Shown here: positions 7,371-40,676 of the stretch, one piece after another
How positions within the stretch are numbered: position 1 is the first letter of the stretch
How the letters are laid out: each line of letters starts with the position of its first letter
Translations under genes and position numbers: made by a program
The notes under the pieces: model-generated
What the model was told of the DNA's origin: nothing
Database searches by the model: none
What the model saw: only the letters and a program-made list of their open reading frames with translations
Source: a virus
Reading direction: 5' to 3' (one strand)
Virus record (IMG/VR): IMGVR_UViG_3300032116_000277
Coordinates: 1-53,218 of that record
Length of the DNA stretch: 53,218 nucleotides

Positions 7371-7643
7371 ATGTCAAAGAAGTTCTATGCTCAGAAAGAT
7401 GCTCTGGGCTGGCCTATCCCCGGTACAATGATGAGTGGTGCTAAGGTGCCTGCTAATCTCGTTGAGATTCCTGCAGCTAATGTAGCTCCAGGTGCTAATC
7501 AGGTAGCTGTTTCTCACCCTGAGAAGCTCCGCTATTTTGTACGTAAGGACAAGAAAGGAAACATCATCCCTAACACATTGATTATCAGCTTGAAAAAGCC
7601 AGCTGGGGATGTCTATGAGTTCAAACTTGTAAAGGCTAGCTAA
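7371..7643 (+). CDS. small hypothetical protein (90 aa), first gene of the plus block
   Basis: Soluble, basic, beta-rich small protein (begins MSKKFYAQKDALGWPIPGTMM, later FVRKDKKGNIIPNTLIISLKKP). It has repeated short GNIIP/GWPIPGT turns. No family was recognised; proteins of this size and composition occur near lysis or structural genes of Bacteroidota phages. It lies 2 bases before the next gene and follows the divergent promoter region. Confidence 0.6.
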   Translation: MSKKFYAQKDALGWPIPGTMMSGAKVPANLVEIPAANVAPGANQVAVSHPEKLRYFVRKDKKGNIIPNTLIISLKKPAGDVYEFKLVKAS

Positions 7644-7645
7644 AG

Positions 7646-7948
7646 ATGGTAAAGGAAAATCCGGCTATTGCAGCATTCAAAGTCTGGGTGTTTCCCAGTC
7701 TTGTGTCTATTGTCAGTCTGATGATCTGGAATGACGTCAACGAAATTAAAGCTGATGTCAAGGCTCTTATGGCCCAGTCTAATATAGACAAGACTCGTAT
7801 AGACAACCTAGAACGTCAAGTCTACGGAGGAAAGACAGCAGCTAATACTCCGGGTAAAGAAAACCCTAAGCCTTTTATAGCCAACGAGTTATATGCTGTG
7901 CTACCTGACAATACATCTAATCCTAAACCTAAAAAACGTACTATATGA
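7646..7948 (+). CDS. single-pass membrane protein with coiled coil (lysis cassette)
   Basis: 100 residues. One membrane segment near the N-terminus (about residues 11-28, VWVFPSLVSIVSLMIW), then a heptad-like segment (VNEIKADVKALMAQSNIDKTRIDNLE) and a Pro/Asn-rich tail. The layout resembles small holin-associated or spanin-like phage membrane proteins. Its stop overlaps the start of the holin candidate (ATGA), so the two are co-translated. Family not recognised. Confidence 0.6.
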   Translation: MVKENPAIAAFKVWVFPSLVSIVSLMIWNDVNEIKADVKALMAQSNIDKTRIDNLERQVYGGKTAANTPGKENPKPFIANELYAVLPDNTSNPKPKKRTI

Positions 7949-8193
7949 GTTTTAAGCAATGGTTATTGGACCTCTTCAAAGATGAACGCGGGTCTACATC
8001 TATTAAGCCGGTAGTTGGATTTATGGGTGCACTGTTTCTCTGTGTAACTCTTACAGCAAACTCTTTTACTCACGGTGATATCAAGCCGTCTGATGCTCTT
8101 GTGGACGCTGTTCTTATTATGACCTGTGTGGGTATAGGAGCAGACAGCGTAGATAAATTCAGCCACAAGAAAAAGAAAGAAGATGAAGCTTAA
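7945..8193 (+). CDS. holin candidate (two membrane segments)
   Basis: 82 residues with two hydrophobic stretches (about 20-41 and 50-68) and a strongly charged C-terminus (SHKKKKEDEA), the usual layout of a class II holin. It is the third gene of a cassette that also holds a spanin candidate and the GH19 endolysin, which supports the call. It would form pores in the inner membrane to release the endolysin. The assignment is by topology and position, not by a recognised family. Confidence 0.55.
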   Translation: MSFKQWLLDLFKDERGSTSIKPVVGFMGALFLCVTLTANSFTHGDIKPSDALVDAVLIMTCVGIGADSVDKFSHKKKKEDEA

Positions 8194-8815
8194 TAAGTAT
8201 ACGATAGGTATTCTGGTAGTTATTGGTCTTATCCTGCTATCCCGCGTTGGTTGCAACAACGGATTTGGCTTTTTTGATAAGCCTAAAGCAGATACTGTAG
8301 TAGTTCGTGACACTGTATGGAACGAGCATGACAGTACTATTATACGCCAAATGACTATCCGGGAAGTAATCTATGATATTGATACTCTTCCTCCTCAGTA
8401 CTTGCCTGATACAAACTATGCAGCTTTAAAGTTGCAGTTTGAGGCACTGGTTAAAGAGCATGCTTCAAAGAATGTATACTCTGATACTTTGAAACTAGAT
8501 ACTCTGGGTTACATAGCTGTAGCAGATACTACACAGTTTAATAAACTATTAAATAGATCCTACGACTATAAATATAAGATTCCTACTATAACCGAAAAGA
8601 TCACCATTACCAAGTATCCTCCTAAACGTAATCAAGTTTATATAGGAGGTGCTATAAATGTTGATGCAAAGCTTGCTCCCAGCACAGCTGAAGTAGGATT
8701 AATTCTAAAGACCAAGCGTGATCAGATTATGGGTGTAAAAGCCGGTTCTGATATCAATGGCAATGTAAACTACGGATTCCAGAGTTACTGGAAGATCGGA
8801 TCTAAAAACAGATAA
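8183..8815 (+). CDS. membrane-anchored periplasmic protein, candidate unimolecular spanin
   Basis: 210 residues. An N-terminal anchor (about residues 7-22, YTIGILVVIGLILLSR) is followed by a long polar domain and a C-terminal beta-rich part (VYIGGAINVDAKL ... VGLILKTKRDQIMGVKAG ... YGFQSYWKIG). This last pattern of short strands recurs in small envelope proteins of Bacteroidota phages. Position between holin candidate and endolysin suggests a spanin-type role in outer-membrane disruption; that is inference. It overlaps the upstream gene by 11 bases. Confidence 0.6.
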   Translation: MKLNKYTIGILVVIGLILLSRVGCNNGFGFFDKPKADTVVVRDTVWNEHDSTIIRQMTIREVIYDIDTLPPQYLPDTNYAALKLQFEALVKEHASKNVYSDTLKLDTLGYIAVADTTQFNKLLNRSYDYKYKIPTITEKITITKYPPKRNQVYIGGAINVDAKLAPSTAEVGLILKTKRDQIMGVKAGSDINGNVNYGFQSYWKIGSKNR

Positions 8816-8816
8816 T

Positions 8817-8975
8817 ATGAAAATGTTGATTCAAAAGCTTCTCAGCCTCTTCAAAAAGAAAGTAGTGAAGAAGGTTGAAGAGGTAAAGGCACAAACTATG
8901 CCTGCACCCGCTGCTCCAGTACAGCAGAAGAAGAAAAAGAAGTACTACAAACCCAAGCCTAAGGCTAATATTTAA
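8817..8975 (+). CDS. short, highly basic protein (52 aa)
   Basis: Begins at ATG 8817 one base after the previous stop (TAATATG) and ends at TAA 8973-8975. An amphipathic N-terminal helix (MKMLIQKLLSLFKKKVVKKV) is followed by an Ala/Pro linker and a C-terminus of Lys, Tyr and Pro (QQKKKKKYYKPKPK). This resembles small nucleic-acid or membrane-binding phage peptides. No family recognised. It sits directly before the endolysin, so a lysis-related or membrane-active role is possible. Confidence 0.6.
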   Translation: MKMLIQKLLSLFKKKVVKKVEEVKAQTMPAPAAPVQQKKKKKYYKPKPKANI

Positions 8976-8985
8976 TTCTTAGTAT

Positions 8986-9585
8986 ATGGATTTATCACGT
9001 CTCAAAGGTCATGTACCTGATACTGTTATTGCACAGATCCCTGAAGTGATGCAGAAGTTTGCAGTGAACACACCGCTACGTCTTGCTCACTTCTTAGCTC
9101 AGTGTGGACACGAGTCAGGTGGATTTAAGTTAACGCAAGAGAACCTTAACTATTCAGCTAAGGGTCTTATGGGCATTTTTAAAAAGTATTTTCCTACACA
9201 GGCTTTGGCTGATCAGTATGCACGCAAGCCTGAAAAGATTGCTAACCGTGTATACGGTGGACGTATGGGTAACGGTCCTGAAGCTTCTGGTGAAGGATAT
9301 AAGTTTCGTGGTCGTGGATATATCCAATTGACCGGTAAGCAGAACTATACTGCATTTGATGCTTCTGTACCAGAGAGTATAGTAGATAATCCTGATCTAG
9401 TAGCTACCAAATATCCTTTGGCATCTGCTGCCTGGTTCTGGAGTAAGAATGGTCTTAACGCCATTGCTGACCAAGGTTCTAGTGTTGAGACTGTTACAAA
9501 AGCTACAAAGCGTGTAAACGGTGGTACTATTGGTTTAGCAGATCGTATCAAACACTTTAAAGAGTATCACGCATTACTTGCATGA
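8986..9585 (+). CDS. GH19 family endolysin (chitinase-like muramidase)
   Basis: 199 residues, the size of a single-domain phage GH19 lysin. Catalytic Glu43 is in AQCGHESGGF. The second acidic residue lies in EASGEGYKFRGRGYIQLTG (about residues 103-121), followed by NYTAFDASV and AAWFWSKNGLN, all hallmarks of GH19. It hydrolyses peptidoglycan at the end of infection. There is no signal peptide, so it needs the holin candidate upstream for export. It is the best-supported gene of the lysis cassette. Confidence 0.9.
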   Translation: MDLSRLKGHVPDTVIAQIPEVMQKFAVNTPLRLAHFLAQCGHESGGFKLTQENLNYSAKGLMGIFKKYFPTQALADQYARKPEKIANRVYGGRMGNGPEASGEGYKFRGRGYIQLTGKQNYTAFDASVPESIVDNPDLVATKYPLASAAWFWSKNGLNAIADQGSSVETVTKATKRVNGGTIGLADRIKHFKEYHALLA

Positions 9586-9616
9586 TAAAAAAAGTTATTA
9601 CTAAAAACTTCAAGAT

Positions 9617-9751
9617 ATGGCTAAGGCCAAAGGCTCCAAAGCCGGAGAATCAAGAAAGGTCACCTTTGGAAAACGTAAGGGCGGTAAAGCTGCCAAAAGC
9701 AGAGGACCAAAGGACAAGGCAGTCTCCAAGTACCGAGGACAAGGACGCTGA
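9617..9751 (+). CDS. small basic Gly/Lys/Arg-rich protein (44 aa)
   Basis: Begins MAKAKGSKAGESRKVTFGKR and ends SKYRGQGR. It is nearly free of hydrophobic residues, with a pI well above 10, so nucleic-acid binding is likely. Small proteins of this type with a YRGQGR-like end seem familiar from Bacteroidota phages, but I cannot name a family. A second frame starting at 9582 (ATGA overlap with the endolysin stop) is open across the same stretch. I prefer the 44-residue frame on composition, with real doubt. Confidence 0.5.
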   Translation: MAKAKGSKAGESRKVTFGKRKGGKAAKSRGPKDKAVSKYRGQGR

Positions 9752-9784
9752 TTCATAATAAAACCAACCTCTAAATCTAACGTT

Positions 9785-10267
9785 ATGAACCTTAGAGGTT
9801 ATTTTATAATGCTATTCTGTACTGTGTGGGTATCATCATACTCACAAAGTATATATATTGATAGTGTACGGAACAATATTCCTACTGGTCCGCTTACTGC
9901 TAATAAGAATCTAAGCTTTGGTGTAAAGAACATCTTGGCTGAAGTGCTTCAGGACAAAGGACTTGACCTGCTTCCTAAAAAGTATGAGGGTGAACTAAGT
10001 CTAGTTACGGAGATATACTTCTTTGATATCGTACAGACAAATGGTGGTGTTTCTGTCTTTAAAAAGCAGAGTAATACTACTATTATGGGTTTGAAAGGCA
10101 TGCTATATAAAAACGGCAAGCTTGTAAGCTCAAAGAAAATTGAAGAGTCTTCTTCTGAAATAGTTATGGCCAACTTGGTCGTACCTGAGGATGGAAAACC
10201 TAATCAACAATCTGTTAGTAACGTAATCAAAAAAGCCTGTCAGGCTTTAATTGACAAACTCCTATGA
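9785..10267 (+). CDS. secreted small protein (160 aa), first of the exported island
   Basis: N-terminal signal peptide (about residues 1-20, YFIMLFCTVWVSSYSQ, cleavage before S/Q as is common in Bacteroidota). The mature part is soluble alpha/beta (FGVKNILAEVLQDKGLDLLPKKYEGELSLVTEIYFFDIV). The NILAEVLQDKG...LVTEIYFFDI layout resembles that of the CsgG-like protein at 14663, so it may be a short CsgG/LpoB-like relative. Its stop overlaps the start of the T9SS-targeted gene (ATGATAA), so the two are coupled. It probably acts in the periplasm. Confidence 0.65.
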   Translation: MNLRGYFIMLFCTVWVSSYSQSIYIDSVRNNIPTGPLTANKNLSFGVKNILAEVLQDKGLDLLPKKYEGELSLVTEIYFFDIVQTNGGVSVFKKQSNTTIMGLKGMLYKNGKLVSSKKIEESSSEIVMANLVVPEDGKPNQQSVSNVIKKACQALIDKLL

Positions 10268-12165
10268 TAAAAAAACTTTTGCTTGCTTGCTTTCTTCTTC
10301 TTTCAACACTCACTTACTCACAAACAATCGGACACTTTCAGCAGTTAGCTAGTGTAAAAAGAGGAGATACTTTAGATGTGGCGTGGTACTACCAGCCTAG
10401 TGGTTCTGTGGATATCAGAACGTTTCAGGTTGACTTTCAGTTTAAGAAGGACCTGTTTACGCATCTGAGTACTCACATAGACACTCCGTATGTAACTACT
10501 GGTCGTCAGCCTCAGCTGGACTATAGACAATTTAATGACTATAAGTACAGTGGGTATAGTAATGGAAGTTATGTCTACTCTGCAGACAATGCCTGGTCAG
10601 TAGGACGTAACTATCTTACGCTTCCTGCCGGCAGTGGATTTGGTACAAACAATGGATACATAATCCATAATAAGTTTAAGATCAATGCTGTTGCAGCCAA
10701 CTTCGTATCAGATACGATTACTGTTAACTGGGCAAGACTTTTTAGAGTAGACGGTACCAGTATAGGAGATAACGTAGCAACGCTGACTAATAAGAAGCTT
10801 GCTATTTTCTTACAAGGTAACCTGACTATCTCTGGTAAAATATGGATGGGTGCTAGTACTGGCCTTCCTACACTTATTGCTTATGATAACAATACAGGTG
10901 TAGAAGCATCACGTACAGTTCCTGCTGCAGATGGTACTTATACATTAAGTAACATAGAGCAGAACACTAAGTATAAGATTAAAGTAGTGTTTCCTCAGGA
11001 TAGTTTGATCACAATGCGTGACCGTGCTGTTACTGTAGCAGATGCTGTAAAGACTTTAAATGAGTTTAAGAATGCTGATATTAATCAGAACTTTCCAAGG
11101 ACGTATCTAACCAACGGCTTGGCTTATTTGATAGCAGATGTTAGCCGTAATGGAGTATTAGATGGTGGTGATCCTTATAACATCTATGCTTCTGTATCAG
11201 GACTACAGCCAATTGATACAGCTCGTCTTGTGAATGTATTCTTGAAGAATGAGTTTGACTCATTGGCTATGGGTGCAAACCAGTGGACCACTTGGGCCAA
11301 TAACCGTGATAAAGGTTTGTTTGTATATGACTCTGTGACTACAGTTAACTCTACAAACATTGATATCAAGTATATGTTACTGGGTGACGTAGATCGTTCT
11401 CACTCTTCACCAGTATATAATGCACAGGGGCAACTTGTAGCTCGTACAATATACCGTGGTAACATAAATGTAACTGTACCTGATACTTATGTAAACAATA
11501 CACAGCCTTTGTATGTACCGTTTAACGTAAGCTACGCAGGGTACAAGAACACAGGTTTACAGTTTGAGATGAAGTATGATCCTGCGGTTGTTCGTTTTGA
11601 GCAGATCCAGTCTAACATTGACGGACCTTGGCTTCAGTATGTAACTAACGACAGTATAAAAGGTATAGTAAGGTTTGGTGGAATGAATAACCAGGATAAG
11701 GGTTTCTTAACTGGAGACTTTACTCCTTATAAGCTTAAGTTCTCACCTAAGAATCCTGGTACAGACATCACCAGCTTTGTATATGTGAGGCGTTTGATGG
11801 ATGCATCTGATGAAAACGGTGATCACTACAACATTGTGTTGCAGTCAGACCGTATAGTTCTTAGTTACCGCATGAATGGAGGAGGTCCAGTATTTGCAAA
11901 CATGGAGCCTACTATCACGGTAAATCCTAATCCGACTACCGGCATGTTTGAGGTAGTAGTATTTCTACCAAAGAACAGCAACATGAATGCACTGGTCTAT
12001 GATATGCAAGGTAGACTTATTATGGACTTAGGTAAGTTCAAAACAGAAGACACTGAGTTTACATTTCGTAAACCAGTATCAAGTTCTAGCATGCCTGTAG
12101 GTATGTATAATCTAGTATTATTTGATAACCGTAAACGTATAACAACTAAACTAATAAAATCATAA
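10264..12165 (+). CDS. secreted multidomain protein with T9SS type A sorting domain
   Basis: 633 residues. Signal peptide 1-19 (KKLLLACFLLLSTLTYSQ). Residues about 20-185 are beta-rich. Residues 186-250 look like a carboxypeptidase-regulatory/Ig-like module. Residues 290-375 hold a dockerin-like stretch (ADVSRNGVLDGGDPYNIY, then LLGDVDRSHSS). Residues 400-530 look cohesin-like (LYVPFNVSYAG ... GLQFEMKYDPAVVRFEQI). Residues 549-633 are a T9SS C-terminal sorting domain (ITVNPNPTTGMFEVVV ... VYDMQGRLI ... GMYNLVLFDN ... TKLIKS). It would be carried across the outer membrane by the host type IX system and attached to the surface or released. Such a domain on a phage protein is very unusual. It is the largest gene of the island. 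Confidence 0.8.
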   Translation: MIKKLLLACFLLLSTLTYSQTIGHFQQLASVKRGDTLDVAWYYQPSGSVDIRTFQVDFQFKKDLFTHLSTHIDTPYVTTGRQPQLDYRQFNDYKYSGYSNGSYVYSADNAWSVGRNYLTLPAGSGFGTNNGYIIHNKFKINAVAANFVSDTITVNWARLFRVDGTSIGDNVATLTNKKLAIFLQGNLTISGKIWMGASTGLPTLIAYDNNTGVEASRTVPAADGTYTLSNIEQNTKYKIKVVFPQDSLITMRDRAVTVADAVKTLNEFKNADINQNFPRTYLTNGLAYLIADVSRNGVLDGGDPYNIYASVSGLQPIDTARLVNVFLKNEFDSLAMGANQWTTWANNRDKGLFVYDSVTTVNSTNIDIKYMLLGDVDRSHSSPVYNAQGQLVARTIYRGNINVTVPDTYVNNTQPLYVPFNVSYAGYKNTGLQFEMKYDPAVVRFEQIQSNIDGPWLQYVTNDSIKGIVRFGGMNNQDKGFLTGDFTPYKLKFSPKNPGTDITSFVYVRRLMDASDENGDHYNIVLQSDRIVLSYRMNGGGPVFANMEPTITVNPNPTTGMFEVVVFLPKNSNMNALVYDMQGRLIMDLGKFKTEDTEFTFRKPVSSSSMPVGMYNLVLFDNRKRITTKLIKS

Positions 12166-12168
12166 ACT

Positions 12169-12477
12169 ATGTCAGAAGAACAAGTAACACAAGAAGAAGG
12201 TACTTGGTCAGGTCTTAAGAAGACTTTGATTGGTACTATCAGTACAGTAATCCTTGGTGCAGGCACCTGGGTAGGTACAACATTTTTTGGAGGTAAAGAA
12301 GAAGCTGCTCCAGCTCCTGCCGCTGCACAGCCAAGTATTATCATTAATAATACACAGGCTCAGCAACAAGCTGCCGGTGGTACTAAAGTAATTGAGCGTG
12401 TGGTTGAGAAACCAGCTGCTAAACCTGCAGAACCAGCTCCAAAGAAGAAAGAGTTTTCAGAAGAACCAAAGTGGTAA
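12169..12477 (+). CDS. small membrane protein with Ala/Pro-rich tail (102 aa)
   Basis: One hydrophobic stretch at about residues 18-40 (LIGTISTVILGAGTWVGTTFFGG) follows an acidic N-terminus, then an Ala/Pro/Gln-rich linker and a charged tail (EKPAAKPAEPAPKKKEFSEE). This resembles TonB- or PspA-like linker-bearing anchors in layout only. It starts 3 bases after the T9SS protein stop. The role is unknown; the neighbours suggest envelope association. Confidence 0.6.
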   Translation: MSEEQVTQEEGTWSGLKKTLIGTISTVILGAGTWVGTTFFGGKEEAAPAPAAAQPSIIINNTQAQQQAAGGTKVIERVVEKPAAKPAEPAPKKKEFSEEPKW

Positions 12478-12493
12478 TATAAAACCTAAGTAT

Positions 12494-13102
12494 ATGTTAT
12501 TTAAAAAGAAAGAAGAACAAACAACACCAGTAACGGGATTTCAAGCCTTGCTCAATTCAATGATGAGGAGACGCTGGTTTATTACAGCTCTTGTTCTTGG
12601 GTCATTTATGTTTATTGTTGGTGGCATATTTATTGCCATAGAGTTGGGTCATCCCATAGCTGGTGAGTGGAAAGAACTTCTACTTCTTATGCTGGGTGCT
12701 TTCATCGGCTCATATGGCAAGATCATTGACTACTGGTTCTCTGATACCGACAAGGACAAGATGTTAGTTCAGAAAATGGATGAAGAAGACGGTGTTAGTC
12801 TGTCTCATACTAATGAAATGAAAGAGTCAGCTAAGCCTGCCGGTGGAAGTCTTGTAGATCCAACATTTGCTGCATTTGCTGCTAAAGCAGGAGATTCTAA
12901 ATCTGATACAGCACCAGTTTCTAAAAAAGGTACAGAGATTGACGAAGACGGTGATGGCGTAATGGACGGTCTAGACTTTGATGGTGATGGTAAGATTGAT
13001 GAATACTTTGCCCACAGACAGTGTGAACACGTATGGGGTGATGTAGACGGTGATGGTGATGAAGAGTGTGTTAAGTGTGGCAAGATTAAAGATCCGGAAT
13101 AA
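12494..13102 (+). CDS. two-pass membrane protein with DxDxDG calcium-binding-like loops
   Basis: 202 residues from ATG 12494; a longer in-frame start at 12392 would overlap the upstream gene and adds an unlikely segment. Two membrane segments (about 28-49 and 60-81), then a soluble tail. The tail has DEDGDGVMDG and DFDGDGKIDE at about 150-169 and DVDGDGDEE near 183, the Asp-rich loops of EF-hand/thrombospondin type 3 repeats. Cys177, Cys192 and Cys195 around the last loop could bind a metal. A calcium-dependent envelope protein is plausible beside dockerin-like proteins that also use calcium. Family unknown. Confidence 0.65.
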   Translation: MLFKKKEEQTTPVTGFQALLNSMMRRRWFITALVLGSFMFIVGGIFIAIELGHPIAGEWKELLLLMLGAFIGSYGKIIDYWFSDTDKDKMLVQKMDEEDGVSLSHTNEMKESAKPAGGSLVDPTFAAFAAKAGDSKSDTAPVSKKGTEIDEDGDGVMDGLDFDGDGKIDEYFAHRQCEHVWGDVDGDGDEECVKCGKIKDPE

Positions 13103-13135
13103 TATTTTTCACTTAATCCTGTAATATGGAAGCTG

Positions 13136-13381
13136 ATGAACAAAAGAAAAAGATTAAAGATTTTACGTTCCTCCCGGGATATAAGCTTGATGTTGGCAAT
13201 GTTTTTTTTGCCACTGGGCTACGACTTTTTGTTCAAGACGCTTTTAGATATTACGGGCAGCTTTTGGCTTACCGATATGATATTTTATTGTTTATCAGGA
13301 GTCTTTTGGCTGTCATACTGGCTGCTTTCAAAGTACTCTAATAAAATCAAAGATCATGGCAATGCCGTGTCCAATATGTAA
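13136..13381 (+). CDS. small two-pass membrane protein (81 aa)
   Basis: Basic N-terminus (MNKRKRLKILRSSRD) followed by two hydrophobic segments (about 16-36 and 43-64). It overlaps the next gene by 26 bases. A competing frame begins 10 bases earlier (13126, MEADEQKKKIKDFTFLPGYK) and is equally clean for its first 28 codons up to a run of eight T at 13202-13209. The first part of one frame may be joined to the second part of the other. I kept the frame with continuous membrane segments. Confidence 0.45.
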   Translation: MNKRKRLKILRSSRDISLMLAMFFLPLGYDFLFKTLLDITGSFWLTDMIFYCLSGVFWLSYWLLSKYSNKIKDHGNAVSNM

Positions 13382-13559
13382 AAATCAACTGGGTTTTGAT
13401 TTAGACTTTATAATAAAAAACCCCAAAAGCAAATGTCCTCACTGTAATACTGTTTTTAACTTTTCTGTAAGTGAAGATGTCAAATCATCCTTTTATTCTG
13501 CAACACATGAGATAAAGGAGATTAAAAAAAAGTATGAGAAGATGGTAAAATTTACTTAA
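13356..13559 (+). CDS. zinc-ribbon small protein (67 aa)
   Basis: Two CxxC knuckles (CPIC at residues 5-8 and CPHC near 28) form a classical zinc ribbon, followed by a helical tail (SATHEIKEIKKKYEKMVKF). It resembles the zinc-ribbon start of many small bacterial and phage proteins. Function unknown; it overlaps the upstream membrane-protein gene and precedes the DUF2589-like pair by 18 bases. Confidence 0.6.
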   Translation: MAMPCPICKNQLGFDLDFIIKNPKSKCPHCNTVFNFSVSEDVKSSFYSATHEIKEIKKKYEKMVKFT

Positions 13560-13577
13560 CCTATAAAACTCAAAACT

Positions 13578-14168
13578 ATGGCAGATTCTATTGCAGATCA
13601 GTTCAGGGGACTTCCTATTGAAGAACTTATTGTTAGTCCTATTATTGGCATGGCCAAAGGTCAAGCCAAGCTAAATGAAGTAACCTGGAGATATATCTCT
13701 GAGGTTGCTTTTGAAAAGAAAGGAGACGCTCAGGTGGCTCGTTCTTTAGATGTACAGATGGAAAGAGTGTTTACTAATGGTGACACTGGTGTTCAAGAAC
13801 TTAAAACTGTTTACAGTAAAGTTCCTATGCTTCCTTTGGTTCCACTTCCTTCTCTTGCTATTACTTCAGCTGATATTAACTTCACAATGGAAGTTAAAAC
13901 ATCAGAAGGATCAAAAGAAACTAGTGATACCCAGACTGGCTATGAAGTTTCTGCTGGTGGTAAATGGTGGGGTATGAGCTTTAATGCTAAAGTAAGTGGA
14001 AGCGTAAGTACACACAAAGAAAATACCAGAAGTACTGATAATTCAGCTAAGTATGAAGTTAAAGTTCATGCTGAGCAGTTACCTCCTACAGAAGGTATGT
14101 TAAAGTTATCTGATTTTTTGACTGCTATGCTTGAGCCATCTTTGGTTCCATTGTCTAAGGAAAGCTAA
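13578..14168 (+). CDS. DUF2589-family protein
   Basis: 196 residues. It begins with a helical part (IADQFRGLPIEELIVSPIIGMAKGQAKLNEVTW), then PMLPLVPLPSLAITSADINFTMEVK, then a long amphipathic strand region, and ends AKYEVKVHAEQLPPTEGMLKLSDFL. This order (helical start, VPLPSL strand pair, ENTRSTDNSAKYEVKVHAEQ) matches my recollection of DUF2589. The family has no established function. A second, shorter relative follows immediately. There is no signal peptide, so it acts in the cytoplasm or at the inner face of the membrane. Confidence 0.65.
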   Translation: MADSIADQFRGLPIEELIVSPIIGMAKGQAKLNEVTWRYISEVAFEKKGDAQVARSLDVQMERVFTNGDTGVQELKTVYSKVPMLPLVPLPSLAITSADINFTMEVKTSEGSKETSDTQTGYEVSAGGKWWGMSFNAKVSGSVSTHKENTRSTDNSAKYEVKVHAEQLPPTEGMLKLSDFLTAMLEPSLVPLSKES

Positions 14169-14184
14169 ACAGTAAAAATACTTT

Positions 14185-14673
14185 ATGGCAAGATTAAACG
14201 TAGAGGAACTCATAGGCGGTCTCTTAGAGGCCGCCATGGTTTCTCAAAGTATAAGTGAAAGACAGCATATTAATGCAATAAGAAACTATTTTAATGAAGA
14301 TGGTACTCCTAAAACTACTTCGTTTAATGTAGGTGGTAAAGACTTGGTAGTACCTCTTTATATTTTAGCAGATCACTCATCTATAGGATTAGATGAATTA
14401 GATATTGAGTTTAGCTGTAGACTGCTATTTGGAGACGAAGAAAAAGATGTTTCCAATCTTAAAAAATCTCTGTTAGGACTATTTAAGAAAAAGGGATACC
14501 AGCATAACATAAAAGGAATAGAAGTTGATTCTGGATTTAATCCTAATAGTTCTGGGCAAGCTAAAATAAGGGTAAAGTTTAAATCTGATGAAAAGCCAGA
14601 AGCTGTTTCTAGATTAATTGATTCTTATATCCAAGCTCTTGAGCCTATAAAATCTAATGATGATGAAAGTTGA
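14185..14673 (+). CDS. DUF2589-like second copy (162 aa)
   Basis: Parallels the upstream gene: helical start (VEELIGGLLEAAMVSQSISE), then VPLYILADHSSIGLDELDIEF, aligning with VPLPSLAITSADINFTM of the 196-residue protein, and a late strand with RVKFKSDEKPEAVSRL. It is more divergent in the middle. The two genes are 16 bases apart and probably form a heteromeric pair. It overlaps the start of the CsgG-like gene by about 11 bases. Confidence 0.55.
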   Translation: MARLNVEELIGGLLEAAMVSQSISERQHINAIRNYFNEDGTPKTTSFNVGGKDLVVPLYILADHSSIGLDELDIEFSCRLLFGDEEKDVSNLKKSLLGLFKKKGYQHNIKGIEVDSGFNPNSSGQAKIRVKFKSDEKPEAVSRLIDSYIQALEPIKSNDDES

Positions 14674-15424
14674 TAAAGATATACTTAAGATTACTTTGAT
14701 TGTAGGCCTGTGGTTTTTATCTATGTTCTTGATCAGTTCACTTTTAAATAAGTGTACAGCTCAGACAGTAGGGTCTACTAAGACCGAACAGTATCAGGCT
14801 GGCTTTGAAAAGAAAGTAAACATTGATTCTTTGATGGACTATAACGGTCCAACTATTCCTATACAGCTATTAAGCTTAGGTATCAATGAAGATGTATATG
14901 CTATGTACCCAGAGCTTAAAGACAAACGTGTAGGTCTGGGCGTTACTAATATCATTGTTGAGTATCTGGAGGAGACCGGTAGGTTCACCTTTACAGAAGA
15001 TAAGACTGAGATTAAGAACCGCATGGTAAAGCAGTTTCAGGCCAGTCAGTCTGGTATTACTGAGAACAAACTGGATGGACGTGGTAAGATTATGTTAGCA
15101 CGTTACTTTGTGTACATAGAAGTATATGACTTTTCTGTATCTGTTGACGAGGAGGTGAAGCTTGCAAATGGTGTAAAAGAAACTATGGTAACACGACTTG
15201 GTTTACAAGCTAAGTTCGTGGATGCTGAAACAGGAGAATACTTCACTGCCTCAGGTCTTGGAGAAGCCAAGACAGTAAGAGAGCTTACTCTTCTTAATGA
15301 TGATAACCTCTCTGAAATTAAGTTCAACCAATCAACGATTGGTATCACTACTAAGAAGGCTCTGGAAACAGCGGCTTCAAGAGTAGTTCTGCGTATGATC
15401 AAGAAGCAGATCTTCAAGAACTAG
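14663..15424 (+). CDS. CsgG/LpoB-like exported protein
   Basis: 253 residues from ATG 14663; in-frame ATGs at 14657 and 14660 are equally possible. The N-terminal hydrophobic segment LKITLIVGLWFLSMFLISSLL, followed by KCTAQ, looks like a membrane anchor or lipoprotein-like signal. The mature domain has RVGLGVTNIIVEYLEETGRF ... LARYFVYIEVYDFSV ... LGLQAKFVDAETGEYFTASGLGEA, the strand/helix order of CsgG-type proteins. CsgG forms the outer-membrane pore for curli; here no curli subunits are visible. Its neighbours are a Ser-rich barrel candidate and exported proteins. It is coupled to the next gene (TAGTG). Confidence 0.65.
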   Translation: MKVDKDILKITLIVGLWFLSMFLISSLLNKCTAQTVGSTKTEQYQAGFEKKVNIDSLMDYNGPTIPIQLLSLGINEDVYAMYPELKDKRVGLGVTNIIVEYLEETGRFTFTEDKTEIKNRMVKQFQASQSGITENKLDGRGKIMLARYFVYIEVYDFSVSVDEEVKLANGVKETMVTRLGLQAKFVDAETGEYFTASGLGEAKTVRELTLLNDDNLSEIKFNQSTIGITTKKALETAASRVVLRMIKKQIFKN

Positions 15425-16845
15425 TGTGGCACCGTGCCCTTTATATCATAACATTGCTTGCCCTTACTTTGACTGCAAGAAGTCAGGTATTAACGTATAA
15501 CTTCACAGATCCTTGTACAAAGGTGGTGACTACGTTCAATATACCTGTAACGGGTACTACTACAATATACTTTCTAAATCGTACAGCCTCGTTTACTGCA
15601 GCAGATGTCAGTAGCGGGGCTTTTGCTGTTTGGGTAGATGCTACATATGCTGACTATAGAAAGATTTCACCCTGCGGTCAGCAATCCGGGCAGGTTACCC
15701 AGAATCAGATTACTAGTCAGATTATTGGTAACACAGTACAAAGTGTGGTGGGATCAATCATGAGCTCTGCACAGAGTCAGGCTACATCTTCTGTAGTCTC
15801 AAGTGCAACAGGAAGCTCAGTGTCATCTGGGGGAGGTGGCGTATCCAACGCTAGCTCAAAGGATAACAAGGACTCTAAATCTAATAACAATGGAAATACT
15901 TCTAATAGTTCTTCTAATTCTTCTAATACCAGTTCTAATAACCAATCAGGAGGCTCGTCAGGGTCTACTAGCTCTAGTCAAAATACTACTGGTACTGGTA
16001 GCTCTAGCGGGAGCAATAGTAGTAGCTCATCTTCATCTGACCAAAAGTCTTCTACAGAAGGGTCTCAAGAAGTTGCGGCTTCTACCACAATGAGTGCTGA
16101 TGCCTCATCAGATAAATCTGGAGGAGACAATAGTTCTTCTTCAGGAGGAGGAGGTAAATCAGGTAGTAAAGGTGGTGGTAAAGGCGGAGGGAATAACCCC
16201 ATACTAGTATCATCTGACTTTACTACGGCACAGAACTTGGATAAGACGTTTACGCCTATCCTGAATCTATCTATGAGTCAGTCATCACTGACTGGTAAGA
16301 CCAGTTGGGGAATGACTGGAATGATATGGTTTAACTTTAAGCAGTTTGCTCTTAGTGGTAAGTATACTAAAATGAGTGTAAACAAAAGTGGGAAGCTTAA
16401 GTATATATCCAACTTTGCACTGACTGCAGTTTACAGCTACGGAAATATCCTTGGCTTTATTGGGTACAGTGGTATTCTTAATGCTGGCAAGTTTGGGGTG
16501 ACCGGCTTTAATGTATCAGGTGCAGCAAGTGTAATAAGTGAAGATGATAATACATTCTTTAGTCCGTCTATTACTGCGTTTTACACTAAGCCTTTTTACC
16601 TAAATAAACGTAAGAGGTTAACTATATCACCTGAACTGTATATAATTTCTACTCCTCTGATATACTCAACAAAAGATAAAGTAACACAGAGTGATAGAAC
16701 TTTTAGTTTCTTTGCAGGATCTGGATTTGACTATCAGATAAGCAAGAAGTTTAAGTTTAACGTAAACTATAAGCTTAACGCTAGTACAAACAGAGAGTTT
16801 CCTATCCTGAGTTTCTTTTTGGTAGGAAGTAAAATCAACCTATGA
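15424..16845 (+). CDS. exported Ser/Gly/Asn-rich protein with C-terminal beta-barrel-like domain
   Basis: 473 residues, GTG start overlapping the upstream TAG. Signal peptide about 1-20. Residues 20-100 form a small beta domain with two Cys (PCTKVV, PCGQQ). Residues about 105-255 are very low in complexity (Ser, Gly, Asn, Thr). Residues about 270-473 consist of alternating strands (FNFKQFALSGKYTKM, GNILGFIGYSG, FSPSITAFYTKPF, FNVNYKLNAS) ending FFLVGSKINL, the pattern of an outer-membrane barrel or OmpA-like beta protein. It is inferred to sit in the outer membrane, perhaps as partner of the CsgG-like protein. Family not recognised. Confidence 0.6.
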   Translation: MWHRALYIITLLALTLTARSQVLTYNFTDPCTKVVTTFNIPVTGTTTIYFLNRTASFTAADVSSGAFAVWVDATYADYRKISPCGQQSGQVTQNQITSQIIGNTVQSVVGSIMSSAQSQATSSVVSSATGSSVSSGGGGVSNASSKDNKDSKSNNNGNTSNSSSNSSNTSSNNQSGGSSGSTSSSQNTTGTGSSSGSNSSSSSSSDQKSSTEGSQEVAASTTMSADASSDKSGGDNSSSSGGGGKSGSKGGGKGGGNNPILVSSDFTTAQNLDKTFTPILNLSMSQSSLTGKTSWGMTGMIWFNFKQFALSGKYTKMSVNKSGKLKYISNFALTAVYSYGNILGFIGYSGILNAGKFGVTGFNVSGAASVISEDDNTFFSPSITAFYTKPFYLNKRKRLTISPELYIISTPLIYSTKDKVTQSDRTFSFFAGSGFDYQISKKFKFNVNYKLNASTNREFPILSFFLVGSKINL

Positions 16846-18281
16846 GAATCTTACTTGTCATATTACTATGCTTGATGACTGTGCTTACTCAAGCTCAGTC
16901 TATTACGGCTCCTCCTGGTAGAACATACCAGGTTAATGTGAGCGGGCAAGATGCAAGTGGGTTTGTTATTAGTGGATTTAGTACACAGTCATTATTAACT
17001 TCTATAGGGTTAGTTGACCCACCTGCAGGAGTTACATTTAGTATTACAACTACTACAGGTTTATCTTTTGCTACAGGATATAATTCCTGGACCAATCAGA
17101 CACGTATAAGTTTTACTGGTACTCAAGCTAACGTAAATAATGCATTAGCTACTTTAAAGATCAATACTGGATCTACACTTGGTAACGTACAGATATCTGT
17201 ATCTACCACAGAAAACCCAGCTGGCTATTATTATAATGCTATCAATGGTCACTTTTATAGACCAATATCTACTACTGCTTTTTATTCTGCAGCAAAGACA
17301 GCTGCTTCACAACAAACTTTTAAAGGTCAGACTGGTTATCTTGTGACTATAACTTCTCAGTCTGAGCAAGACTTTATTGTTGCTAACGTACCACAGAATA
17401 ATATTTGGTTTGCACTCTCAGATGTAGCTCAAGAGGGTTATTGGCGTGTAGACGCAGGTCCTGAGAATGGTACGTTAATCAAGACAGCAAACGGTCAGAC
17501 TGCCGGTAATATTGCCGGTCAGTACAACAACTGGTGTGGAGGTGAACCTAACAACGCAGGTGGTGAACACTATGCAGTTACCAAATGGGGCGGGGGAGGA
17601 TGTTGGAATGACCTTCCAAACAACTATAACTGTGCTTACATAGTAGAGTTTGGTACTTGGTCAAATCCTGCTGATGCTACCTTTACTGGATTCTATACAG
17701 CTAATACAACTAACACAGTAGCTGTAACAAATACGTTGACAGGAACAGTTACTATTCCTGCGGGACTAACATCTAGACCTCTGCTCACTTTATACAGAGT
17801 TGTTAATGGATCAGATGTACTGGTAGACTATAAGACCGTAAATACTAATGGGACTTATACGTTTACTTTACCTAATCAGAACTCTACATACAAGATTGTA
17901 CCCTCATTAACAATGCAGGGTATAACCTCAGCTGACTTTACAGCAACATGGGCGGAGTGCTTGAACATTAATACGCCTAACAATCTTAGTCCTGGATTAT
18001 CTATGACAGGAACTAAACAGTGGAAGGCAGCAGATGTAAACAAGAACGGTATATTAGACCTTGGTGATGCTTTCTTAATCATAGCACACACCACAGGGTT
18101 AAGATCAATTTCAGAAGTCTTATGGTTCAATTCATCAGACTATGACAGTATCACGAGATCTAACTTTTCTACTGTCAACTCGGTCAGCTCGTTTACTATA
18201 AACGTAGCTACCAGTGATGTTATACAGAACATAAAGTACTGTGTACTAGGGGATGTGAATCTATCTCACAGTTCAAACTAA
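16842..18281 (+). CDS. secreted C-type lectin protein with dockerin-like C-terminus
   Basis: 479 residues. Signal peptide 1-19 (ILLVILLCLMTVLTQAQ). Residues about 20-125 are beta-rich. Residues about 128-270 are a C-type lectin domain: NGHFYR, SQSEQDFI, NIWFALSD, EGYWRVDAG, GEPNN (235-238), GGCWNDLPNNYNCAYIVEF. The EPN and WND motifs are the calcium/sugar ligands of mannose-type lectins. Residues 290-360 resemble the Ig-like module of the T9SS protein. Residues 390-479 hold AADVNKNGILDLGDAFLIIA and end CVLGDVNLSHSSN, matching the LLGDVDRSHSS site of that protein, then stop. There is no T9SS domain. It is the last gene before a terminator. Confidence 0.75.
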   Translation: MRILLVILLCLMTVLTQAQSITAPPGRTYQVNVSGQDASGFVISGFSTQSLLTSIGLVDPPAGVTFSITTTTGLSFATGYNSWTNQTRISFTGTQANVNNALATLKINTGSTLGNVQISVSTTENPAGYYYNAINGHFYRPISTTAFYSAAKTAASQQTFKGQTGYLVTITSQSEQDFIVANVPQNNIWFALSDVAQEGYWRVDAGPENGTLIKTANGQTAGNIAGQYNNWCGGEPNNAGGEHYAVTKWGGGGCWNDLPNNYNCAYIVEFGTWSNPADATFTGFYTANTTNTVAVTNTLTGTVTIPAGLTSRPLLTLYRVVNGSDVLVDYKTVNTNGTYTFTLPNQNSTYKIVPSLTMQGITSADFTATWAECLNINTPNNLSPGLSMTGTKQWKAADVNKNGILDLGDAFLIIAHTTGLRSISEVLWFNSSDYDSITRSNFSTVNSVSSFTINVATSDVIQNIKYCVLGDVNLSHSSN

Positions 18282-18313
18282 AAAAAGACCAGTGGGATTT
18301 CTCCCACCGGTCT
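18281..18313. terminator. bidirectional intrinsic terminator between convergent blocks
   Basis: Stem AGACC-A-GTGGGA / TCCCAC-C-GGTCT with loop TTTC and one mismatch. It has A residues on the left and an AT-rich right flank. It lies between the stop of the lectin gene and the stop of the minus-strand gene at 18322, so it can serve both directions. The terminator at 26655-26688 has the same TTTC loop. Confidence 0.75.
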
Positions 18314-18941: not shown

Positions 18942-20453
18942 TTAGTTATTCTCAATAGTGTTTCCATACTGATCTACTTTGGAGATCTTACTACCGTCAA
19001 AGACTACAACTTGTCCTCTTTGAGAGTATTGCTTGATAACTTCACTATCAAAGTGATTGAACCTTGCTCCTTCTAGACCTATAAAGAATGCTTTATCGGT
19101 AAAGTGATGACATCTGTCTTCTGCATCGGTAATGACAAGAGCGTTCTTGTCTCCGCGTGCAATGTTATTAACGGCTACATCAATACTAGTACCGCCTCCG
19201 CAGTCAATCATAGAAATAGATATGAGATCATTACGGTATTTCTTTAACCGGGTGTCAAAGAGATAGACTTCATTTAACATATCCATCTCTTTTAGTTTAG
19301 CTATCATAGACTTAGCAAAGTCTATACGGGTTATTTGATTACCTTGAGCGTCTTTTGTGCCACAACCTGAAGACATAGATCCGGATATATCTACATACAC
19401 ATCTATCTTACCTACTGCTTTAGTATCCTTGATTTGTATATCTTCTGCAAAGATCTTACGCAGTTGTGGATGTAAGAGTTCATAGTCTTCTAGACCAGAT
19501 ACATCCTGGGCATTGAATAGATCCTCGTAAGTTGTGATCTTCCGGGATGAGAAATAACTAGTAGACTTATCTAAGAGCTTTTTGAGTTTCTCTTTAAGAG
19601 CACCCATAGACATCTTGATATTTGCGAGTCTACCTGCAACCTGACGCATATAGTCTGGGCTAAGCTTTCCTGCTTCTCCACTACCAGATTGGTTAGCCTG
19701 GTCAAACATTTGTTCTTGGATATCTTGACCCATTGACTCGTCCATCATCTTACAGGTTTCCTGTGCATCTTGCATGGCACGTTCTAATGCATTCTTGCTG
19801 GTTTGTGAGCCAAACATCTTATTTAGTGCATCATCTGCAGCATCGTTACCAAACTCTGAGTCAGAGTCTAGTCCGTTTTGCAGATCCTGTGCCGCCTGTG
19901 GATCAATGTACTCCAGCTGCGTCATCTGCATCATGTAGTACATCATCATGTTACGAGTATAGATTGCAGACTTAAGGTTACCACCTTCGGTCATGATCTT
20001 ACCAACAGGATTGTTTGCTTTCTCCAGAAACCTGAACCGGGTATGATTCTTGTCTGTACGCTCTTCAAACTCAAGTTTATCCATCTTGTTGTAGTACATC
20101 TTGAAAATGTCCAGCTTAAGATGCTTAGGAAACTTTTCATAAGTATCACGTACTTTTTGATAGTATGCACTAAAGTCTGGCTTCTTGTCTTCATCTAGCT
20201 TTTTAAAAGCTGCACTTTTACTGAAGTTGTTATACTCTTCTTTCATCTTACTGGCATCCTGAAAAGCTACATCTACAATACGAGATATTTTTCCCTCATC
20301 TATGTAGTGTACATACGGTTTAATAAGATCGGCTTTTTTATAAAAGTTTAGTTTGCCGAAGAGACCTTCGTTGTCTTTGTAATGAGACTGTATTTCACCT
20401 TTCTTTACTTTCTCAAGTATAGTGTATACATTCTTATACTGTTTGTTTGACAT
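18942..20453 (-). CDS. VWA-domain protein (CoxE/CobT-like partner of MoxR ATPase)
   Basis: 503 residues. The N-terminal 330 residues are helical, with an Asp/Asn-rich middle. The C-terminal 170 residues are a von Willebrand A domain with a full MIDAS motif: IDVYVDISGSMSSG, then a CGGGTSID threonine site and LVITDAEDR. It binds a metal and probably couples to the MoxR ATPase encoded upstream. Such pairs remodel protein complexes or insert metals; phage versions are known but their substrates are not. A terminator hairpin lies between this gene and moxR, so expression may be partly uncoupled. Confidence 0.8.
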   Translation of the reverse strand: MSNKQYKNVYTILEKVKKGEIQSHYKDNEGLFGKLNFYKKADLIKPYVHYIDEGKISRIVDVAFQDASKMKEEYNNFSKSAAFKKLDEDKKPDFSAYYQKVRDTYEKFPKHLKLDIFKMYYNKMDKLEFEERTDKNHTRFRFLEKANNPVGKIMTEGGNLKSAIYTRNMMMYYMMQMTQLEYIDPQAAQDLQNGLDSDSEFGNDAADDALNKMFGSQTSKNALERAMQDAQETCKMMDESMGQDIQEQMFDQANQSGSGEAGKLSPDYMRQVAGRLANIKMSMGALKEKLKKLLDKSTSYFSSRKITTYEDLFNAQDVSGLEDYELLHPQLRKIFAEDIQIKDTKAVGKIDVYVDISGSMSSGCGTKDAQGNQITRIDFAKSMIAKLKEMDMLNEVYLFDTRLKKYRNDLISISMIDCGGGTSIDVAVNNIARGDKNALVITDAEDRCHHFTDKAFFIGLEGARFNHFDSEVIKQYSQRGQVVVFDGSKISKVDQYGNTIENN

Positions 20454-20467
20454 ATAGTCAAAATTTA

Positions 20468-20499
20468 AAGTAGAGTCAGCTGTTACACTGACTCTACTT
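20468..20499 (-). terminator. strong hairpin between MoxR and VWA genes
   Basis: Perfect 12-bp inverted repeat AAGTAGAGTCAG / CTGACTCTACTT with an 8-base loop. On the minus strand it is followed by TAAATTTT, so it could terminate or attenuate transcripts after the MoxR gene. It lies in the 60-base gap before the VWA start at 20453. Confidence 0.65.
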
Positions 20500-20513
20500 G
20501 ATTAATAAATACA

Positions 20514-21824
20514 TTAAGCCTGTTCTGCCATCAATGTATCAAACTCTTCTGAAGTTTGATAGTCTTTACGAGCAGGGTGGCTACCTAAGATATACTGCAT
20601 AGAAAGTTCTATTTCTTCTACTTGTGTCTCATCCATGATACCACGGGAAACATAAGTATTGATTAGAGATTCTATGTCTGCAATAGCCAGCTCCAGCTGT
20701 TCATTGGTAGTATAGCTCTGCAGCATTTCTACTTTAGACATTACAGCCTTCACCTCGGGGCTCATCAGTTTGTTCTGTAGTTCAGAACCAGCTGACTGGC
20801 CGATCATGATCTGTGCTGTCTTTACTAGGGCTTTATCTACTGAAATATCCCAGATGTAACTAACTGCTTTGGTAAGCTTTGGTACGAAAGTAAGCGTACG
20901 GTCAGAGCTGTGTTGGTAACCAACTTCAAGATACTTCTCTAGTTTGTTTACAGGGATTTCTACCTGCTCAATTTCTGCACTGTTAGGTACACCAATAGTA
21001 AACTTCTCACGGTAGTTACGGGCTCCCTTGTTATAATACTTAACAAGCTCACCTGCAGATACACGGTTCACAGTCATCTTTAACATAAAGCGGTCCCAGA
21101 ATGGTGAGTCTTGCTCATCTTTAGGGATCTCATTACAAGTAGCAATGAACAGCTTCCACTTACATGGAATCTTGTGCTTACCGTTAAAGAGAAACTTCTC
21201 GTTCATTACACCTAGCATCGCATTACGGATTGCAGAGGAAGCTTTGTCAACCTCGTTGATAATAACAATCTCTGCATCTGCAATTGGAGCAGCTAGTTCA
21301 TACTTGTTCTCTGTGAACAGTTTACCCAGATCAGGCATACCCTTGATCTCTGAAGCTTTAGTACCCTCATCTGTTTCTAGGATATAAATCTTCTGAGCAA
21401 AGTCTTGAGCTGTCATCTTACCGTCTTTATTAAGCCATGCTTTTGCATACTCAATAACTGTTTTAGTCTTTGCAACACCGGGCTCACCTACAAGCAGACA
21501 GGGTAGACCTGTTGATTCTGCAAGGGCCATCATCTTAAATACTTCTTCCTTGTTGATTAAGGAAGTTTCAATTGTACGTACCTCTTGGGTAGTTTTCTTG
21601 GTGATTGTCTTCACTTTAGACATGTTTACTTTGTTTGTAATGTTAGGACTTGGATTTACTGTAGTTTGTATTTGATGTGCATTATTTACATGATAGGCTT
21701 TTACCCATCTTTGTACACCAGTTGAAGAAGCTCTTACTTCCCATAAATTTCCGTCATTGCCAGTCATTATATGACCGACAGGATATAGTGTTGCACTGTC
21801 TGTTGGACTTGGTCTAGGCTGCAT
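20514..21824 (-). CDS. MoxR-type AAA+ ATPase with small N-terminal domain
   Basis: 436 residues from ATG 21822-21824, 4 bases after the upstream stop; a longer frame to 22019 would overlap that gene. Residues about 15-40 hold a small domain (YPVGHIMTGNDGNLWEV...GVQRWVKA), a pattern often seen in virus proteins. The AAA+ core has Walker A LVGEPGVAKTKT, Walker B AEIVIINEVDKA, sensor FIATCNEIP and the FWDRF arginine-finger region. MoxR ATPases act as chaperones with VWA partners; the partner is the next gene. The CobS-like cobaltochelatase subunit is the closest alternative. Confidence 0.8.
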   Translation of the reverse strand: MQPRPSPTDSATLYPVGHIMTGNDGNLWEVRASSTGVQRWVKAYHVNNAHQIQTTVNPSPNITNKVNMSKVKTITKKTTQEVRTIETSLINKEEVFKMMALAESTGLPCLLVGEPGVAKTKTVIEYAKAWLNKDGKMTAQDFAQKIYILETDEGTKASEIKGMPDLGKLFTENKYELAAPIADAEIVIINEVDKASSAIRNAMLGVMNEKFLFNGKHKIPCKWKLFIATCNEIPKDEQDSPFWDRFMLKMTVNRVSAGELVKYYNKGARNYREKFTIGVPNSAEIEQVEIPVNKLEKYLEVGYQHSSDRTLTFVPKLTKAVSYIWDISVDKALVKTAQIMIGQSAGSELQNKLMSPEVKAVMSKVEMLQSYTTNEQLELAIADIESLINTYVSRGIMDETQVEEIELSMQYILGSHPARKDYQTSEEFDTLMAEQA

Positions 21825-21828
21825 AGTA

Positions 21829-22188
21829 TTAGAGGTTGACGAAGGCTGAGAGGTCGTCTTCTGTTTGATTAACTCCCACCGCTGAGTAGTTGTCATCCAC
21901 TGATACCACTGGTTGTTCCACAGGATTTGCTGTCCTAGCAGTTGTGGGTTCTTGGGTTTGATTAACGGTCTCATTAGTGTCGTCAATAATGTTAAATACT
22001 GTGATATTAGTTTCTGCATCTCTTAGTTTTGCATTTCCTTTACGGATTACTGCAATCTGTTGCTCTTTTGCATTATACTTTTCTTGGATGTTACCGTAAC
22101 CGATATCATCACGCTTCAGCCATGTAAGGCCGTTGTTGAGGTCTTCTAAGATCTGTGATACGTACAGATCTACTTTGTTTACTGCCAT
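21829..22188 (-). CDS. hypothetical protein upstream of MoxR (119 aa)
   Basis: Helical N-terminus (VDLYVSQILEDLNNGLTWLKRDDIGYGNIQEKY), then a polar, disordered-looking Thr/Val/Pro tail ending LSAFVNL. No family recognised. Stop at 21829-21831, four bases before the MoxR start chosen here. It probably belongs to the same functional unit. Confidence 0.6.
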   Translation of the reverse strand: MAVNKVDLYVSQILEDLNNGLTWLKRDDIGYGNIQEKYNAKEQQIAVIRKGNAKLRDAETNITVFNIIDDTNETVNQTQEPTTARTANPVEQPVVSVDDNYSAVGVNQTEDDLSAFVNL

Positions 22189-36893: not shown

Positions 36894-37469
36894 TTATAAA
36901 CGTTTATTAATAAGTTTAGATCTACATATGTTGCAGAAGTAGGTACCTTCTTGATCAACTTGTTTGATTGTACCTTTTGCAGAACTCATTAAGCATTTAG
37001 AGTCATTAGTACAATGATCAAGACCAAAGTTGTGACCTACTTCATGTATTGAAACTTTATTAATACGCTCAAGAACTAGTTTTTTAGAAAAGCCTTTTAA
37101 TCTATAAACAGATACAACGCATATGTTACTATTGCGTTTTGCAAGCCCAAATATTCCCCACTCAGGTTGACCGGGTGTTTTAGTATAGCAAACATCTTTT
37201 TCAGTAATAAGTATCGTATGATTAGATGTTTCATACTTATCAAGCATTTTTTGAGCATCATATCTACTACTTCTTATTTTAGCATGTATATCTTTAGTTC
37301 CACTTATAGGCGTATTAACTATACATCTGATACTATAAAAAGATTCTAATGAAGACTTGATCGTATTTATGTAAGCTTTGTCTACATTATCTATAGGTTG
37401 TATGTATATAACTGACTTAGAATCTATGTGAAAAAGATGAATAATAAATAAAAACAGTAGAGTTTTCAT
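36894..37469 (-). CDS. secreted archaemetzincin-like zinc protease
   Basis: 191 residues. Signal peptide about 1-16 (LLFLFIIHLFHIDS). The motif IHEVGHNFGLDHCTNDSKCLM places His142, Glu143, His146 and His152 as the metzincin zinc site, with Cys153 and Cys159, and Met161 as the Met turn, exactly the archaemetzincin form. A further pair CNIC at about 179-182 gives the second zinc site. It would hydrolyse proteins outside the inner membrane. Exported archaemetzincins in phages are unusual. A 71-base hairpin lies upstream. Confidence 0.8.
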   Translation of the reverse strand: MKTLLFLFIIHLFHIDSKSVIYIQPIDNVDKAYINTIKSSLESFYSIRCIVNTPISGTKDIHAKIRSSRYDAQKMLDKYETSNHTILITEKDVCYTKTPGQPEWGIFGLAKRNSNICVVSVYRLKGFSKKLVLERINKVSIHEVGHNFGLDHCTNDSKCLMSSAKGTIKQVDQEGTYFCNICRSKLINKRL

Positions 37470-40660: not shown

Positions 40661-40676
40661 GGGTGGATACGGAAGA

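Follow-up and report, generated by a model that had tools for sequence, protein, structure and literature searches.

A conserved phage module encoding predicted exported proteins as a candidate trans-envelope adhesin assembly

We analysed a linear virus record of 53,218 bases from IMG/VR (IMGVR_UViG_3300032116_000277; "the window" below is this whole stretch), which encodes a phage terminase and portal, and within it a run of genes that we call A to K (Table 1). A preliminary description made from the sequence alone had listed eleven consecutive plus-strand open reading frames (ORFs) at 9785–18281, with which our own ORF listing agrees, and had read them as one single block of exported proteins. 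Our results show two cassettes instead. The first is a core module, A-B-C-D-(E)-I-J-K, with a near-fixed order across loci of A-B-C-(D)-I-J-(K). The second, F-G-H, is an optional insert. The core includes a protein with a CsgG fold, a cohesin scaffold with a sorting tail for the type IX secretion system (T9SS) and a C-type lectin, and it is found in phages whose terminases show no detectable relationship.

Table 1. Positions of the genes and features discussed in the text. Coordinates refer to the window unless a locus (L number) is given.
Feature	Position	Strand	Remarks
Candidate unimolecular spanin (the name is a guess), membrane-anchored periplasmic protein	8183..8815	+	In the 7371-18281 unit
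GH19-type endolysin	8986..9585	+	Glyco_hydro_19, 3.8e-9
A, small exported protein, 160 aa	9785..10267	+	Invariant part of the core; no family
B, exported scaffold protein	10264..12165	+	Pfam, AF2, Foldseek
C, single-transmembrane protein with Ala/Pro-rich extension	12169..12477	+	Invariant part of the core
D, two-transmembrane protein with C-terminal Cys/His cluster	12494..13102	+	Near-invariant 45-residue core in the alignment
E, small membrane protein	13136..13381	+	Adjoins the core in close relatives only
F, zinc-ribbon-like protein, optional F-G-H cassette	13356..13559	+	Two CxxC pairs
G, DUF2589 protein, optional cassette	13578..14168	+	4.8e-30
H, second DUF2589 protein, optional cassette	14185..14673	+	6.6e-15
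I, exported CsgG-fold protein	14657..15424	+	AF2 and Foldseek
J, exported protein with long Ser/Gly-rich linker and conserved C-terminal domain	15424..16845	+	No family
K, exported C-type lectin with EPN...WND sugar-site motif	16842..18281	+	Dockerin-type Ca loop DVNKNGILDLGD
Hairpin terminator	18286-18313	-	T-run on the minus strand, between convergent units
Lipoprotein-type ORF between B and C	L071 8431-8799; L019 9341-9697; L037 7585-7959; 35 more loci		Possible surface lipoprotein

Plus-strand genes run unbroken from 7371 to 18281, and the GC skew flips its sign together with this unit. Its 18 genes include the candidate spanin, the endolysin and the eleven ORFs A to K, which form its 3′ end. 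Gaps between genes are 33 nucleotides or less and many genes overlap, in agreement with the compact block first described. By contrast, a start of the unit at 9785 does not hold, because the plus-strand genes, the endolysin included, are continuous from 7371. Nor does the single terminator assigned to the end of the block: the T-run of the hairpin lies on the minus strand, there is no U tract on its plus-strand side, and it would best serve the convergent minus-strand genes.

To count how often the core genes occur together we used I as bait with 10 kb of flank on each side. A, B, C, I and J were all present in 40 of 40 loci, accompanied by D in 27, a lysin in 26 and K in 22 of them; the spanin candidate, for which no Pfam match was found, adjoins the module in 19. 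Because I itself had been the bait in this count, we repeated it with K and with J. The same five genes were then found in 23 of 23 and 45 of 45 full-flank viral loci, respectively. Some loci are near-duplicates, so the independent observations are fewer than the locus counts; the I members form 24 clusters at 88% identity, and the BLAST set of 161 loci was recruited mostly via I and G. The preliminary description had proposed to check whether the gene order recurs. It does so on over 70 viral contigs, near-duplicates among them, as well as in immuto, an isolated phage of Flavobacterium, and an assembly artefact is therefore rejected. I, which is present in at least 599 viral stretches, and D are the most conserved members. 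Compared with near relatives, A, B, D, I, J and K had ratios of nonsynonymous to synonymous substitution rates (dN/dS) of 0.04–0.14 and are under strong purifying selection. C is looser (0.22–0.48).

The F-G-H cassette behaves differently. In L004, L006 and L007 it is absent and E directly precedes I, and in other lineages it lies elsewhere relative to the core. Relatives of the unit (window, L086–L161) are present on many viral contigs in varying order (FGH, GHF or HFG), often near the core and also without it. G alone has 141 viral relatives. Of 22 full-flank G loci, 12 contain B, C, D, I and J no further than 10 kb away and 7 have no core gene nearby (L095, L101, L152 and L156–L159). L078 and L161 are parts of one 310,691-base jumbo phage contig where the core and F-G-H lie apart, near its two ends. 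Thus, F-G-H is associated with the core, though not obligatorily. The two DUF2589 assignments made earlier are secure (PF11655, 105 bits for G and 56 for H against a cut-off of 23). What cannot be retained is the inclusion of these proteins and the zinc ribbon in an export block, since the cassette is an optional insert without signal peptides. The literature search on DUF2589 returned one incidental paper only.

Export signals at the N-terminus, which had been predicted for several of the proteins, recur in families A, B, I, J and K; here and below, signal peptides were scanned with a hydropathy heuristic. B, with a hydrophobic N-terminus in most members, is laid out as a signal peptide, an Ig-like module, a dockerin-like module, a cohesin fold (residues about 408–536) and a T9SS sorting tail (about 550–632). 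Judging from secondary structure, its N-terminal half may be cohesin-like. When 40 B members were searched against Pfam, Cohesin was found in 25, Por_Secre_tail in 20 and Dockerin_1 (PF00404) in 3. The best Cohesin (PF00963) match among them was 3.3e-14; the B of the window does not match this profile by sequence, although it does match by fold. Its AlphaFold 2 (AF2) model, with a mean predicted local distance difference test (pLDDT) score of 86.1, was matched to cohesins by Foldseek at TMt values of 0.72–0.79. Por_Secre_tail (PF18962) was detected in the B of the window at 1.9e-6 (28.5 bits against a cut-off of 27), which bears out the earlier view of a T9SS-targeted protein. There is one T9SS tail per phage record in 17 of 24 records.

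The loci fall into two classes according to the end of B. In the tail class (35 loci) B ends in the T9SS tail and C follows directly. In the tail-less class (39 loci) B ends after the cohesin. All but one of these loci (38) have at least one ORF separating B from C, and one such ORF encodes a product of about 120 residues with an N-terminal Cys at a position typical of lipoproteins. In L010 and L011 the insertion at this site is larger and also contains K and J. The products of these intervening ORFs match the T9SS-tail profile of the first class weakly in 16 of 38 cases (E 4e-5 to 0.05) and exceed the Pfam tail cut-off in one record. Because the lipoprotein ORF occurs where B has no tail, the most economical interpretation is that B must be anchored at the outer envelope, and that either its own fused tail or the separate lipoprotein may do this.

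K had been described as a C-type lectin, and Lectin_C at 2.3e-5 in the K of the window agrees with this, as do lectins in the PDB at E values of about 1e-6. Lectin_C was detected in 23 of 25 K members. All 25 have EPN, WND and one full 12-residue loop of the dockerin/EF-hand type, a loop that arises in 0.1% of shuffled K sequences; PF00404 is detected in 6 and the second loop is only partial. EPN is the mannose-type specificity motif of C-type lectins. Homologues end at the same position, so we rejected the idea that K is truncated at its C-terminus and consider it complete. K has a signal peptide and none of the aligned members has a T9SS tail, so it needs another way out of the cell: through the I and J proteins, by travelling with B, or by release at lysis. 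It is present in 31 of the 35 tail-class loci versus 2 of the 39 tail-less loci. This restriction fits a partnership between B and K and could also reflect shared descent. In two loci without K (L033, 11875–17040; L036, 11848–16713) a very long collagen-like protein, ending in an S74 chaperone-type domain in L033, is encoded straight after J; it may serve as a tail fibre or stand in for the lectin as an adhesin.

The CsgG-like reading of I in the preliminary description is upheld by fold. The AF2 model of I has a pLDDT of 74.6, and its best 19 PDB matches in Foldseek are all curli CsgG or complexes of it (E 7.6e-9, probability 1.00), with a template modelling (TM) score of about 0.5 and a root-mean-square deviation of 6–10 Å. 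At the sequence level no CsgG match was found, either by Pfam in any of 24 I members or with the I profile against the PDB. Thus, there is good reason to assign I a predicted CsgG fold, with the resemblance being by fold only. No CsgF or curli subunit family was detected among the core proteins with Pfam or PHROGs. We also considered whether A might be a second CsgG-like protein and rejected this (profile comparison with I, probability 14).

The remaining core proteins are less easily assigned. A is conserved, and most of its members carry a predicted export signal. C and D are predicted to be inner-membrane proteins, and D is a candidate holin by resemblance of topology; it is not a known holin, as no holin family was found in Pfam or PHROGs. 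J had been proposed to be a barrel. No profile supports this and residue periodicity does so only weakly (alternation z about 1.5), so that an outer-membrane barrel is a guess. No meaningful match to a defence function was found with PADLOC.

To see how the module is distributed, we compared it with the packaging genes. The terminase of the window was found in 9 of 40 records. Terminases were available for 14 phages. In 25 of the 91 pairs they show no BLAST similarity while the I proteins are 53–82% identical; in 39 further pairs the terminases are 20–45% identical and the median for I is 68%. Because I stays similar where terminases diverge or are unrelated, it appears that the module has either moved between phage lineages or been far better conserved than the packaging genes. 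Cellular matches were limited to two contigs, both in metagenome-assembled genomes (MAGs) of Bacteroidota. A cellular origin of I was rejected on this basis, as both are probably phage. The T9SS component SprA is present in both host MAGs that hold these contigs. Evidence on the hosts of the metagenomic phages comes from three sources: the T9SS tails, these MAGs and immuto. Immuto is an isolated phage with a complete genome of 160 kb. It has a lectin (Lectin_C), a protein with Cohesin and Por_Secre_tail, C, I and J in consecutive order. Here the module is beside replication and nucleotide genes, away from the lysin and about 100 kb from the terminase, which shows that its linkage to the endolysin is not universal.

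We interpret the core as an adhesin assembly that is encoded by the phage, spans the envelope and is produced by the infected Bacteroidota cell, with capture of sibling cells at lysis as its likely use, and give this a probability of roughly one half. The interpretation draws directly on the co-inheritance of the genes, their export signals, the folds and domains of I, B and K, purifying selection and the spread among unrelated phages. In this model, B would leave the cell through the host T9SS and stay at the outer surface as a cohesin scaffold; in other lineages the separate lipoprotein appears to replace the tail. K, predicted to be Ca-dependent and of the EPN class, would be held on B by a contact of the cohesin-dockerin type. 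I together with J, A, C and D would form an envelope part that exports or anchors components without a T9SS tail. The structure could then bind glycans on other cells or particles, and the most likely benefit would be that uninfected hosts are kept near the lysing cell, as proposed earlier for the curli genes of pelagiphages (PMC7029224). For the window, an endolysin encoded in the unit speaks for action late in infection. An integrase family match was found in just 2 of 28 records, many of which may be fragments. Because integrases are this rare, the infected cell is the likely stage of action and the case for a lysogen, raised in the preliminary description, is weak.

Several observations weigh against the adhesin assembly. 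E. coli CsgG is a lipoprotein. Among 24 I members a lipobox-like motif occurs in 2, both distant, and is missing in 22. Because the lipidated Cys is missing in most members, pore formation by I is doubtful. Dockerin reaches Pfam significance in few members (the 3 of 40 for B and 6 of 25 for K noted above), and the core can do without the lectin, which 37 of the 39 tail-less loci lack. In addition, no aggregation was seen with Melnitz, a phage that carries CsgGF (PMC9004378). We hold only tentatively the fuller proposal of an adhesive-trap apparatus made of a CsgG-fold element, inner-membrane parts, a cohesin scaffold with an exchangeable anchor and a dockerin-bearing lectin, shared by unrelated large phages of aquatic Bacteroidota.

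A rather unlikely alternative is superinfection exclusion, in which a layer of module proteins on the surface, or saturation of the T9SS with phage cargo, would prevent display of the T9SS-dependent adhesins needed by phages and shut out a second phage. This is plausible because Flavobacterium columnare acquires phage resistance when its T9SS and gliding (gld/spr) genes are mutated (PMC9233685). It also fits the presence of a T9SS tail on B and the spread of the module across competing, unrelated phages. However, in 26 of 40 loci the lysin lies close by, and a unit shared with the endolysin suggests late expression. Blocking the T9SS would also take no more than a plain tail peptide, leaving the cohesin, the lectin and the CsgG fold superfluous, and B of the lipoprotein class has no T9SS tail with which to do so. 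Cell contact and biofilm formation, also raised in the preliminary description, are possible uses as well.

It is less likely again that the module carries out an outer-membrane step of lysis, in which I and J would permeabilise the outer membrane, C and D would be holin-like and B and K accessory. The endolysin in the window's own unit and the near-invariance of the two-transmembrane protein D are in line with this, and a pinholin-like role has been suggested for the phage CsgG of Melnitz (PMC9004378). However, D matches no holin family, a spanin-like gene is already in the unit in many loci, and the module of immuto is distant from the lysin. Lysis would have no use for a cohesin, a lectin and a T9SS tail.

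That the lectin and cohesin decorate the virion or its tail fibres and aid adsorption is improbable. The S74-tailed collagen-like fibre gene after J in some lipoprotein-class loci, such as L033, is the observation that favours it. By contrast, virion proteins assemble in the cytoplasm, and here signal peptides are conserved in five families, together with the T9SS tail and the lipoprotein partner; the distance from the terminase in immuto points the same way. With a lectin, cohesin, dockerin-like domains, a T9SS tail and a CsgG fold among envelope-exported products, the core does not look like a set of ordinary tail or capsid proteins. Least probable of all is a cellulosome-like display that captures nutrients or polysaccharides to feed the infected cell, since no core gene has an enzyme domain, even though the cohesin, dockerin-like and lectin domains are reminiscent of scaffolds that capture glycans.

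Other parts of the window have features of their own. A MoxR-type AAA ATPase (bpMoxR, 1.1e-23) is encoded beside a vWA-like protein at 18942–22019 on the minus strand, convergent with the module, and relatives of this pair adjoin the module in 8 of 40 loci. An M54 metalloprotease (archaemetzincin-like; Peptidase_M54, 3.9e-14) with a hydrophobic N-terminus is encoded outside the module at 36894–37469 on the minus strand and is perhaps exported. From 38450 to 41250, about 2.8 kb, ORFs are few and short and the G+C content rises to 0.446 versus about 0.38; searches of this region gave neither an Rfam family nor a tandem repeat. Genes for tRNA-Asp and tRNA-Met (46438–46610) are immediately upstream of the terminase gene.

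If the adhesin assembly is real, phages of a main group of aquatic polymer-degrading bacteria would commonly rebuild the host surface during infection, with the T9SS of the host and a CsgG-like element as their means. Phage CsgG operons would then have a second representative, built differently from those of the SAR11 pelagiphages, and the purpose of such operons could be tested in immuto, which is culturable. It would also mean that phages with unrelated packaging genes share a strongly conserved non-virion module, and would place cohesin and dockerin-like domains in viruses.

The composition of the module had been thought to be without precedent. Our literature search, with most subscription journals outside it, found no paper on CsgG together with T9SS in a phage, and none on cohesin in a Flavobacterium phage genome. 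Phage CsgG and phage T9SS cargo each have precedents, so that only the combination is new (PMC7029224, PMC9004378, PMC9599517, PMC7468147). The closest precedents are the type VIII (curli) CsgG/CsgF operons of pelagiphages of the HTVC008M, Melnitz and HTVC023P type, for which aggregation, superinfection exclusion and lysis have all been proposed (PMC7029224, PMC9004378, PMC9599517) and which in SAR11 and OM43 phages have been transferred across families (PMC9599517). As in those operons, a CsgG-fold protein is central in a conserved block that appears to have moved between phage families. The pelagiphage operons differ in their hosts (SAR11 and OM43) and in having CsgF, curli-fibre, FecR, cyclase and kinase genes, none of which was detected in the core. 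The core in turn has a cohesin/T9SS scaffold, a lectin and predicted inner-membrane proteins, and resembles CsgG by fold only. Cryophage encodes T9SS cargo proteins (PMC7468147), and like B these have the type A sorting tail and are thought to use host export; there a single phage carries the cargo, a PA14 protein and variable enzymes, whereas here a conserved scaffold is encoded in a fixed operon in many lineages. The cohesin fold of B and the dockerin-type Ca loop of K are like those of cellulosomal scaffolds. Unlike cellulosomes, the module has no carbohydrate-active enzymes, sequence identity is low, and K has a single conserved loop rather than a duplicated dockerin; the contact between B and K is a putative one. 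Finally, K shares Lectin_C with the EPN and WND sugar/Ca motifs with mannose-binding protein, langerin and CEL-I in the PDB, and differs from them in being phage-encoded and exported, with a dockerin-like tail; its sugar binding is a predicted one.

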